A program made the position numbers and the translations under genes. A DNA stretch of 64,000 nucleotides from Microvirga sp. Its GTDB lineage: Bacteria > Pseudomonadota > Alphaproteobacteria > Rhizobiales > Beijerinckiaceae. Location of the stretch: the NCBI RefSeq assembly GCF_014699075.1, contig NZ_JACXAB010000001.1, positions 1 to 64,000 of the forward strand, written 5' to 3'. Positions 783 through 57,448 of the stretch are shown in pieces (position 1 is the first letter of the stretch; each line of letters opens with the position of its first letter). The notes under the pieces were generated by a model. The model did no database searches. It was not told where the DNA came from and worked only from the letters and a program-made list of their open reading frames with translations.

Positions 783-1075
783 GTTCCCCATTCGTTCTTG
801 ACTTCTGTCCTAAGCTCGGCTATATCATCTCACATCCTCGTCCGATGATGGGCGCGCTCGCGAGGCGTCGCAGCAGTGGGGCAAGGAGCGGTCCTGCCGC
901 AGGCCTCGCAAGCCTGTGATCGCAGGTGGCCGATCCTGGCTTGATCCAGGTCCGCTGAAACAAACCGCGCGTGATGAGCAGCTTGGCTCTCACTTCCCAC
1001 CACACATCATCGAGCCGGGCTGCCCAACGCGCCACCCTCGATTGCCTTCAAACCCGGGGCCGAACGGCCCTGGGA
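783..1075 (+). repeat. ~290-bp duplicated element, copy 1 (possible ncRNA gene)
   Basis: This stretch matches 57140-57434 in inverted orientation over its whole length, with long identical blocks separated by short variable segments. The edge starts at GTTCCC. A TTGACT-N17-TATATC promoter-like pair follows, then a run of short hairpins, and the element ends in a hairpin whose position is kept but whose sequence differs from copy 2. Open frames through it look similar in both copies only because the DNA is similar. It is either a repeated structured RNA gene or a non-autonomous mobile repeat, and the sequence alone does not decide between these. Confidence 0.75.
798..826 (+). promoter_or_regulatory. 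sigma70-like promoter inside duplicated element, copy 1
   Basis: TTGACT at 798-803 and TATATC at 821-826 are separated by exactly 17 bases. The inverted copy has TTGACA and TATAGG with the same 17-base spacer length, so the pair is preserved. It would start a transcript running into the hairpin-rich body of the element. Confidence 0.5.
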
Positions 1076-13050: not shown

Positions 13051-13088
13051 GCAGGACTCCTATTGTTCTAGTTTTGTTCTGAAACGAG

Positions 13089-13113
13089 AACACGCTTCCA
13101 GGGCCTTGGTTCC
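13089..13113 (-). promoter_or_regulatory. near-consensus EcfG promoter of DUF3072 gene
   Basis: The minus strand reads GGAAC-N16-TGTT, one base off consensus and 39 bases upstream of the start codon. The same TGTT variant occurs at 10738. Confidence 0.5.
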
Positions 13114-13191
13114 TCAGAGAAAGGCGGATTACTCCCGGAGACTCATCCCCGTTATCCACAGATATGGCCCTCGACTCGCTGCCAAGCTCGT

Positions 13192-13206
13192 GTTCTTGCT
13201 TTGTTC
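13192..13206 (+). promoter_or_regulatory. LexA box
   Basis: GTTC-TTGCTTT-GTTC is an exact match to the alphaproteobacterial LexA operator GTTC-N7-GTTC. It ends 24 bases before the ATG of the Y-family polymerase, a position suited to repression. Confidence 0.8.
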
Positions 13207-13230: not shown

Positions 13231-14475
13231 ATGCGCAAACCCACGGGTCTGGAGCGGCTCTATGTCGACTTCGATTCCTTCTTCGCCAGCGCGGAACAGC
13301 ACCTTCAACCCCATCTGCGCGGCCGGCCCGTTGGAGTGATCCCGGTCGATTCCGAGCATACGGGACTCATCGCGGTCAGCAGGGAAGCGAAGGCTAAAGG
13401 ACTCAAGCGTGGCACTTTCGTTCGCGATGCGCGCCGGCAATGCCCCGGCCTTATTCTCGTGACGGCACGGCACGAGGCCTATGTGGAACTGCACCGGCAG
13501 ATCCTGGAGGCCATTGAGACCGCAATCCCCGTCAAGGCGGTCTGCTCCATCGACGAGATGGTCTGCGCGCTGATGCCCTCGGAATGGCCTCAGGGGCTCG
13601 CGATCGGGCAGCGGGTGAAGGACGTGATCGCCAGACGGATCGGCCCCACCCTCACCTGCTCGGTGGGCTTGGGCCCCAACGACCTGCTGGCCAAGATCGC
13701 TGCCGAGATGCAGAAGCCCGACGGTCTGGTAGCGCTCCATCCCGACGATCTGCCCGGCCCCCTGCTCTCGCTCGATCTCACGGACATCCCTGGCATCGCG
13801 CGGGGCAATGCGGCGCGGCTTGCCCGCGCCGGAGTTGGCGATATGACCGCCCTCTGGCGGCTCCAGCCCAAGGAGCTGCGCCGGCTCTGGGGCAGCGTCG
13901 AGGGGGAGCGGCTGTGGATGGGGCTGCACGGCTACACCGTGGAGCGGCCCGAGACCCGGCGCCGCATGTTCGGCCACGGACGGGTTCTTCCCGCCGACTG
14001 GCGCTCCCTGAGCGGCGCCTATGCGGCCGCCCGGGTGCTGCTCGCCAAGGCTTCGGCCCGCATGCGCCGCGCCGGCTTTGCATCCAAAGCGCTCGCCCTC
14101 TGGCTGACGGACAGGAACAGCGCGGGCTGGTATGGGGAGGAACATTTCCGGGCCACCTGGGACGACCCGTCCCTGCTGGCGTCCTTGAGCCGTCTGTTCC
14201 GCCATGCCGAGCGGGAGGAGATGCATCGCAGCCGCAGCGTTCATGTGGCCCTGCACGATCTGGTGCCTCTAAGCGACATCGAGGACGACCTGTTCGATGA
14301 TGCGCCGGAAGCGCAGCTCAAGCGGCGCATGGAATACCTGTCCGCCATCGCCGACCAGCTTAATGTCAGCCACCGAAAGACCCTGCTGCACTGGGGCCCT
14401 TGGGTGACGATCCCTGGAGGCTATGCAGGCGCCAAGATCGCCTTCAACCGCATTCCCGATGCGGAGGATTTTTAA
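13231..14475 (+). CDS. Y-family (DinB-like) translesion DNA polymerase
   Basis: The 414-residue protein has the Y-family palm motifs: YVDFDSFFASAE supplies the first catalytic aspartate and a double-Phe steric gate, and SIDEM the Asp-Glu pair. Helix-hairpin-helix segments (DIPGIARGNAARLARAG) and a little-finger domain follow. It should copy damaged DNA without proofreading. It differs from standard DinB around the SIDE motif (MVCAL instead of the usual aromatic run), so it may be a paralogue. The start at 13231 has AAGG upstream, and a LexA box makes it SOS-inducible. Confidence 0.88.
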   Translation: MRKPTGLERLYVDFDSFFASAEQHLQPHLRGRPVGVIPVDSEHTGLIAVSREAKAKGLKRGTFVRDARRQCPGLILVTARHEAYVELHRQILEAIETAIPVKAVCSIDEMVCALMPSEWPQGLAIGQRVKDVIARRIGPTLTCSVGLGPNDLLAKIAAEMQKPDGLVALHPDDLPGPLLSLDLTDIPGIARGNAARLARAGVGDMTALWRLQPKELRRLWGSVEGERLWMGLHGYTVERPETRRRMFGHGRVLPADWRSLSGAYAAARVLLAKASARMRRAGFASKALALWLTDRNSAGWYGEEHFRATWDDPSLLASLSRLFRHAEREEMHRSRSVHVALHDLVPLSDIEDDLFDDAPEAQLKRRMEYLSAIADQLNVSHRKTLLHWGPWVTIPGGYAGAKIAFNRIPDAEDF

Positions 14476-56858: not shown

Positions 56859-57105
56859 CCCGTCATCCCGGACGGCGTAGCCGATCCGGGATCGTGTGCA
56901 GGAGGTAGCGCCTTAAACTCAACGCTGTCATCCCCGCGCAGGCGGGGATCCATAACCGCTAACGTTTCAGAAGAGAGCGAGCAACGTCGCGCTTCGTTAT
57001 GCCTCGTCGGCGGTTATGGATCTTGAGCTCTGCTGCGCAGCCCCGGGATGACAATGTTGGATTGGTTTACGCGATCCCGGATCGGCTTTGCCGTCCGGGA
57101 TGACG
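56859..57105. repeat. composite intergenic repeat, types E + D + E
   Basis: CGTCATCCCGGACGGCGTAG... (E), then GTCATCCCCGCGCAGGCGGGG, CCATAACCGC, a variable centre, and ...GGTTATGGATC...CCCGGGATGAC (D), then a second E unit in reverse (GGATCGGCTTTGCCGTCCGG). The E-D order equals that at 18719-18923. No gene is supported between hemF and cca. Confidence 0.75.
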
Positions 57106-57139
57106 CTGTTGGTCAGCTTGTCAAAGAGCCAGCGCCTTC

Positions 57140-57434
57140 GGGCCCGAGGCTGGGAAGCCTCAGGCCGTCAAGTCAATCGAGGGTGGCGCGTTGGGCAGCC
57201 CGGCTCGATGTGGTGTGTGGAAGGTGAGAGCCAGACTGCTCATCACGCGCGGTTTGTTTCAGCGGACCTGGAGGCATGCCAGATCGGCCACCTGCGATCA
57301 CAGGCTTGCGAGGCCTGCGGCAGGACCGCTCCTCGCCCCACTCTTGCGACGCCTCGCGAGCGCGCCCCTCATCGGGCGAGGATGTCCATACCTATAGCCG
57401 AGCTTAGGAGAATTGTCAAGAACAAAATGGGAAC
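57140..57434 (-). repeat. ~290-bp duplicated element, copy 2 (inverted)
   Basis: The reverse complement matches 783-1075 along its length. Identical blocks include the run from GCGCGCTCGCGAGG to GGTCCGCTGAAACAAACC, split by a small variable hairpin loop, and the CGAGCCGGGCTGCCC block. Its promoter-like pair is TTGACA-N17-TATAGG, better than copy 1. The distal hairpin (GCCTGAGGC...GCCTCGGGC) has a different sequence from that of copy 1 in the same place. Confidence 0.75.
57391..57419 (-). promoter_or_regulatory. sigma70-like promoter inside duplicated element, copy 2
   Basis: On the minus strand, TTGACA (57414-57419) and TATAGG (57391-57396) are 17 bases apart, almost a perfect sigma70 promoter. 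It would direct transcription into the body of the element. Confidence 0.6.
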
Positions 57435-57448
57435 ATGCACAGCGCCTG

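Follow-up and report, generated by a model that had tools for sequence, protein, structure and literature searches.

A predicted LexA-controlled structured non-coding RNA present in many copies in Microvirga genomes

RESULTS AND DISCUSSION

Two copies of a structured element in the window

We propose that an element occurring twice in 64 kb of DNA from a soil bacterium, Microvirga (the whole stretch that was analysed, hereafter the window) belongs to a family of predicted LexA-controlled, many-copy structured non-coding RNAs. Taken whole, with the particle mechanism discussed below, this is the reading that we favour on balance. The narrower claim within it, of an RNA gene whose LexA site is functional, is highly probable as judged from sequence.

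The first-pass annotation of this DNA had matched two inverted stretches of the window with each other, and the alignment bore this out: positions 776–1048 and 57170–57441 (minus strand) match at 88% over ~273 bases. A covariance model (R1), for which the sequence of copy 1 itself was among those used, found two strong places in the window, both predicted structured RNAs of the type termed A below: 828–1088 on the plus strand (copy 1; 254.8 bits, E=1.2e-76, with covariation) and 57129–57389 on the minus strand (copy 2; 265 bits, E=9.7e-80). The third-best R1 match in the window had an E value of 0.024 and lay antisense on copy 2. The neighbours of copy 2 are a CCA-transferase-like gene on one side and hemF on the other (Pfam and NCBIfam). 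As both copies are merely two of 17 in the genome, the pair as such is not special. The predicted LexA box, the two structural types, the pseudoknot and the concerted evolution reported below were unforeseen in the first-pass annotation.

Copy number within the genus

A search of its own and of related genomes, proposed with that annotation, did find further copies. In its own genome, 22 matching DNA pieces merged into 17 places; a model of the 5′ domain also gave 17 copies, and the full model gave 18 matches in one run and 16 with stricter filters. Matches by DNA were found in 19 of 25 same-genus genomes (its own included) and none in the other six. With the full model, 15 of 19 same-genus genomes matched, with 1 to 34 matches each, and four did not. 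These model counts are possibly low, since the number of candidates scored per genome was limited (65 in the same-genus full-model run, 16 in the order-wide run, 28 in the class and 5′-domain run and 102 in the run on the genomes G039 and G146 described below). The six genomes of 25 without a DNA match and the four of 19 without a model match indicate that the RNA is not essential to the genus. When a 22-base invariant piece was scanned over named genomes, all of the matches listed, at least 115, were to Microvirga.

Predicted LexA box and promoter

The 5′ edge of the conserved unit in copy 1 is a predicted LexA (SOS) box, GTTC-N7-GTTC (783–797, plus strand), followed by a promoter at 798–826 with a −35 element TTGACT, a 17-base spacer and a −10 element TATATC. 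Copy 2 has the same layout on the minus strand, with a predicted GTTC-N7-GTTC box at 57420–57434, also matched by the strict genome-wide pattern described below, and a promoter at 57391–57419 (TTGACA, 17-base spacer, TATAGG). The TTGAC(T/A)-N17-TATA arrangement claimed at first pass is thus present in both window copies, and it is kept across the family. GTTC-N7-GTTC is the published alphaproteobacterial LexA site (PMC3323433), and the Caulobacter LexA consensus agrees with this motif (PMC12907096).

The exact box was found in 171 of 181 distinct copies (221 places merged, after matches under 70 bits had been dropped), and in 157 of 165 places of an earlier, smaller set from which one spurious short match had been dropped. 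Of the ten copies without it, five (L189, L216 and L228–L230) run into a contig end or a masked stretch at this position. Thus it was missing without cut or mask in five of 181 (L039, L040, L048, L096 and L100), and two of these, L096 and L100, have one box mismatch each. The predicted box directly abuts the −35 TTGAC, that is, the operator would lie within the promoter, and TATA follows at a constant distance in 155 of 166 copies, a set from which copies without a box or too near an edge were left out. Across these 166 copies conservation rises steeply at ATGTTC, from 0.39 bits per base in the preceding ten bases to 1.5 and 1.93 in the next two tens. We infer that LexA binds and represses these promoters; because each promoter carries a LexA-site sequence, all of the copies would likely switch on together upon DNA damage.

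One might ask whether the element acts at the DNA level alone, as scattered sites for LexA or a nucleoid protein plus hairpins, with no transcript. The box is the sharpest conserved feature, as such a function would have it, but the constant spacing of the −35 and −10 elements points to a transcript, and ~260 further bases change while keeping RNA pairs, G-U pairs included. We therefore consider a purely DNA-level function very improbable.

Elsewhere in the same genome, GTTC-N7-GTTC precedes each of the two recA genes, at one of which its orientation points away from the gene, and the likely start of lexA, an internal start that was judged likely to be the true one. The motif also occurs beside a putative DNA-repair radical-SAM gene. 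The window contains six such boxes versus 1.53 expected by chance. A strict form, TGTTC-N4-TTTGTTC, has 27 sites in the genome versus one for the reversed control. Sixteen of the 27 fall at copies of the RNA family, a share that is an upper view, biased upwards by the reading of the strict letters from the family itself. It says less than it seems for that reason, and also because an obvious SOS gene is missing next to several of the remaining 11. Copy 1 of the window carries the exact but not the strict form. What stands out is that 17 predicted operators of one genome precede copies of one RNA.

Several further observations were made on these boxes. Two comparison sites in the window, both on the plus strand, lie 127 bases apart within 13065–13206: one in the region before a Y-family polymerase gene (13065–13079) and one at its start (13192–13206), the ORF running from 13201 or 13231 to 14475 with IMS domains (Pfam). 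Together they suggest a shared damage-controlled region. Strict boxes adjoin two radical-SAM genes, of the rSAM_link_UDG and PA0069 families (L200, 1641–2855, and L199, 509–1690), which are candidate damage-response genes, and another stands 74 bases before a 223-residue ORF with no match in Pfam or NCBIfam (L194, 2289–2960). The two recA genes (G000:C35:84746-85534 and G000:C24:288596-289381; L073 and L074) are both full genes of similar score, each with its own upstream GTTC-N7-GTTC, and their settings differ by eye, with an alanyl-tRNA synthetase near one and a Y-family polymerase near the other.

Compensatory changes support a pseudoknotted fold

Sorted by length, the copies fall into two structural types, type A of ~260 nt and type B of ~335 nt, the latter with a long extra arm. 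Common to both are a closing helix P1 (CGAGGG/CCCTCG), the helices P2, P3, P4, P7 and P8, and a terminal hairpin P9; P0 pairs across P1, forming a pseudoknot. In copy 1, where the structure was mapped by eye, the 5′ strand of P1 (846–851) pairs with 1035–1040 with one mismatch, and P8 (982–1019) consists of a stem of 982–989 with 1012–1019 around a variable, nearly G-free loop.

The small stems that the first reading of the two copies had described as kept proved to be real. In 54 type A copies, 95.8% of the cells were paired and 19 of 64 pairs were changed on both sides, against 5–12 when partners were slid; in 32 type B copies, the corresponding values were 96.9% and 35 of 91 pairs, against 10–15. 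Covariation scores were 0.212 for type A (0.047–0.069 slid) and 0.276 for type B (0.038–0.082 slid). The structures were derived from the same alignments that were counted and so lean towards themselves, to an extent that the slid controls show. The type A alignment (A1) held 54 of 58 representatives (L033, L034, L136 and L139 left out), the type B alignment (A2) all 32 representatives, and a third (A3) 31 of 37 pieces. The pseudoknot helix P0 had four of seven pairs changed on both sides in type A and five of eight in type B, and G-U pairs were among those kept through base changes in both types. P4 varies along almost its whole length (in type B, 11 of 13 pairs change), and its loop keeps CGCA without exception in A2 and to at least 90% in A3. 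P1 shows hardly any variation and is thus weakly tested. Single-sequence folding beat shuffled sequences only moderately (z=−2.3 and −3.1). Taken together, the compensatory changes support a pseudoknotted RNA fold of ~260 or 335 nt.

Both window copies end in a hairpin, CCCGGGGCC-GAAC-GGCCCTGGG at 1053–1074 (plus strand) in copy 1, which is helix 12 of the type A structure, and one of unrelated sequence at 57141–57166 (minus strand) in copy 2, also part of that structure. Such a hairpin, at the same place with unrelated sequence, had been pointed out at first pass, and in the family its main stem had five of ten pairs changed on both sides. No clear U-run was seen after it. The further copies, the covarying stems and the kept promoter support the view, already put forward with the first annotation, that the element is a repeated structured RNA gene rather than passive DNA.

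A small-protein gene is not supported by the reading frames. The longest sense ATG ORF had a median length of 29 residues in type A (92 copies) and 13 residues in type B (38 copies) versus 34 and 44 in shuffled sequences. The distance between two conserved blocks took all three phases in both types, with 18 of 30 type B distances in one phase. A short frame from ATGAGGGGC is present in some copies, but the triplet before AGGGG varies widely and is ATG in just 18 of 120 pattern-matched copies. No conserved sense reading frame was found in either type, in agreement with the earlier judgement that the ORFs through the element are probably not genes. Antisense ORFs were longer (median 60 residues in type A and 82 in type B).

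The P8 loop is kept in kind but not in sequence

The P8 loop could be parsed by pattern in 151 of the 181 copies; it measured 19–24 nt in 150 of the 151, among which there were 96 distinct sequences. G made up 1.2% of the inner loop versus 31% of the whole element. Since length and G-poverty are kept across 96 sequences, the loop appears to be kept open in kind and not in sequence. CCTCC was found in none of the 151 parsed loops, which sets them apart from the many-copy anti-Shine–Dalgarno sRNAs of Rhizobiales, and in 67 of 181 copies elsewhere in the element; CCTCCTCCC was found in none of the 181 elements.

These results bear on the possibility that the family is a LexA-controlled base-pairing sRNA, whose P8 loop and perhaps other loops would bind the ribosome-binding sites of mRNAs and lower translation after damage, much as DinR acts on ftsZ mRNA in Klebsiella. 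C-, A- and U-rich, G-free loops suit pairing. There are also precedents, namely many-copy sRNAs of Rhizobiales with anti-Shine–Dalgarno loops (PMC3927594) and DinR as a LexA-controlled sRNA (PMC10907235). However, the diversity of the P8 loops, in copies that are not alike by site, and the lack of CCTCC in the parsed loops and of CCTCCTCCC in the elements speak against it; in our judgement, a pseudoknotted fold of 260–335 nt also exceeds what an antisense RNA needs. We hold a base-pairing sRNA to be unlikely, though a more serious contender than the DNA-level function considered above. An antisense RNA with kept guide loops was rejected, as the loop sequences vary.

Copies at shared sites are homogenised within genomes

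For each of the 17 sites of the genome, other species carry a copy between matching flanks, where a match meant both flanks over more than 250 bases or one over more than 600, and where one group joins what are apparently two sites. Two sites searched directly (L053 and L065) were occupied in four of four other genomes. Of the 94 copies in the five best-sampled genomes, nine lacked a counterpart elsewhere in the set, either because some gain and loss of sites is ongoing or because sampling is incomplete.

The structural type differed in 38 of 89 distinct same-site pairs. In one such pair, L044 and L064, the type switches at a single site and the 3′ flank is 94% identical from its first base. 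Copies of the same type had a mean identity of 84.6% when they came from one genome. Between two species the mean was 80.7% for copies sharing a site and 79.2% for copies of those species pairs at different sites; all remaining pairs averaged 74.5%. In a tree built from 69 type A copies of five genomes, the species labels required 16 changes (34–48 in 200 shuffles; minimum 4), whereas the site labels, on 57 copies at 17 sites, required 47 (41–50 in shuffles; minimum 16). Because likeness among the copies follows species instead of site, and because types swap at shared sites, we infer that they are homogenised within genomes at shared sites, a pattern of concerted evolution as read from their sequences. 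Gene conversion would be the simplest cause. Ribosomal RNA gene families are likewise many-copy and kept alike within a genome by concerted evolution; the Microvirga copies bear no relation to them in sequence or known function, and are single genes with predicted damage control.

The alternative raised at first pass, a non-autonomous mobile repeat spread by transposition and carrying its promoter by chance, found little support. The copies are dispersed, with 0 to 34 model matches per same-genus genome, and both the nine unmatched copies and the exchange of types at shared sites could be taken as signs of movement. On the other hand, in the 111 copies with both edges found, the mean target-site duplication was 1.97 versus 2.12 in partner-swapped controls, a search for terminal inverted repeats found none, and the sites are shared, with the two searched directly being occupied throughout. 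A search of plasmids and phages with copy 1 and a search of viral contigs with the 22-base core gave no match, and the compensatory changes run throughout the fold. A transposable repeat is disfavoured by the lack of inverted ends and duplications and by the shared sites, and carriage by phages or plasmids by the lack of matches in these searches; the chance that the element is a mobile repeat is in our view small, scarcely better than that of a DNA-only function.

A second, unrelated intergenic repeat (of the GTCATCCCGGACGGCAAAGCCGATCCGGGATCGC type) was often seen directly 3′ of the RNA element, as at ~56880–57120 in the window and at L059–L061, L065 and L067.

Distant relatives outside the genus

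With stricter filters, three of 121 genomes of the order matched at an E cut-off of 0.001 (its own, G039 and G095), and of 142 genomes of the class its own alone did. In G039, which belongs to another family of the order, the 5′ domain is kept with P0, P2 and the P4 hairpin with its CGCA loop; the GCGA/UCGC of P2 is replaced by AUGA/UCAU, a change on both sides, and the domain lies behind TTGACA-17-TATATT. We have taken this match as a real distant relative. Three more loci with modest scores (E=2.4e-4 to 7.6e-4 per genome) were found in G146, of the same genus as G039; they lie outside the alignment of model R2, which includes G039, so that the R2 score of G039 itself is by construction. The matches in G095 (E=4.7e-4) and in G025 (E=2.9e-4, weak and gone with stricter filters) were not accepted as relatives.

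GTTC-N7-GTTC was absent from all four G039 and G146 loci (2.5–3.1 kb read), so damage control is not a trait of the whole RNA class within the loci read. Low-copy relatives in a second family of the same order suggest that the RNA predates the genus Microvirga, and on present evidence the LexA box and the high copy number would be a Microvirga trait.

Comparison with known RNAs

At the gathering cut-off, no family of Rfam 15 matched the element, the sole match being an unrelated tRNA in L151; loose searches gave four weak matches to other families, far below their cut-offs, in one search and none in two others. A known RNA family was thus rejected, as nothing credible came from Rfam at either threshold. 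In the one literature collection searched, no description of the element was found. Among 104 candidate RNAs published earlier are the Methylobacterium-1 and Rhizobiales motifs (PMC2864571).

Few sRNAs are known to answer directly to LexA. Among damage-related RNAs, DinR of Klebsiella pneumoniae is a LexA-controlled, Hfq-dependent sRNA cut from the dinI mRNA, and the paper remarks on the lack of other sRNAs directly under LexA (PMC10907235). As with DinR, the output of the Microvirga RNA would be LexA-controlled and raised by DNA damage, although this is predicted here. The two differ in that DinR, as described there, is one piece of an mRNA, whereas the Microvirga RNA has its own promoter with a predicted SOS box, is present in many copies and is predicted to adopt a large pseudoknotted fold. 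SmelA075 and SmelA099 are described as many-copy, stress-tied sRNAs of Rhizobiales with anti-Shine–Dalgarno loops (PMC3927594). They resemble the present family in having several copies per genome in Rhizobiales, a tie to stress and hairpins with variable stems, but they are depicted there as three or four hairpins in a row, their loops carrying CCUCCUCCC, whereas the Microvirga RNA is one multibranched fold with LexA boxes; CCUCCUCCC was found in none of the 181 elements. Mitomycin C (MMC)-induced sRNAs of Caulobacter are also alphaproteobacterial RNAs raised by DNA damage, as is predicted for the Microvirga RNA. However, no SOS box was found near their start sites in that study, and ChvR, which is under ChvI–ChvG, is just 84 nt long (PMC6237742).

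Proposed role in the damage response

RecA-driven cleavage of LexA would induce the RNA after DNA damage, and the many copies would raise its dose. With less assurance, we suggest that the RNA acts in trans, serving as a scaffold on which an abundant RNA–protein particle would form after damage. A protein would be bound, and the fold maintained, by the regions that vary least, namely P1, P2, the P4 loop with CGCA and the A-rich strand ahead of CCG. The nearly G-free P8 loop, whose sequence is free to change, would leave a single strand exposed for docking or as a decoy and would not serve as a specific antisense sequence. As in rRNA genes, the set would stay uniform through gene conversion among its copies. 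The shape of the modelled fold suggests such a particle, and taken by itself the particle model is a tentative proposal that we think may well be wrong.

We would extend this, equally speculatively, to a wider picture in which 17 to over 30 dispersed RNA genes dominate the Microvirga damage response by operator number. These genes might descend from a low-copy RNA of the order that multiplied, came under LexA and has been held uniform by gene conversion, and their product might be a ribonucleoprotein that is induced by damage and has an exchangeable G-free loop; we put somewhat less than an even chance on this account. If true, this would make it the first RNA gene family with many copies in an SOS regulon. 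If the RNA is expressed, it would mean that bacteria can base a damage response on a structured RNA whose dose is amplified, and the family would offer a tractable case of concerted evolution of dispersed bacterial RNA genes.

Other features of the window

Two further features were noted by eye. At 2160–2290, after a small ORF, there are two strong inverted repeats, one of them AAGCATCGGACCC...GGGTCAATCCGATGCTT. The ORF at 2318–2974 on the minus strand has glycine- and aspartate-rich repeats and perhaps encodes an RTX-like calcium-binding protein.
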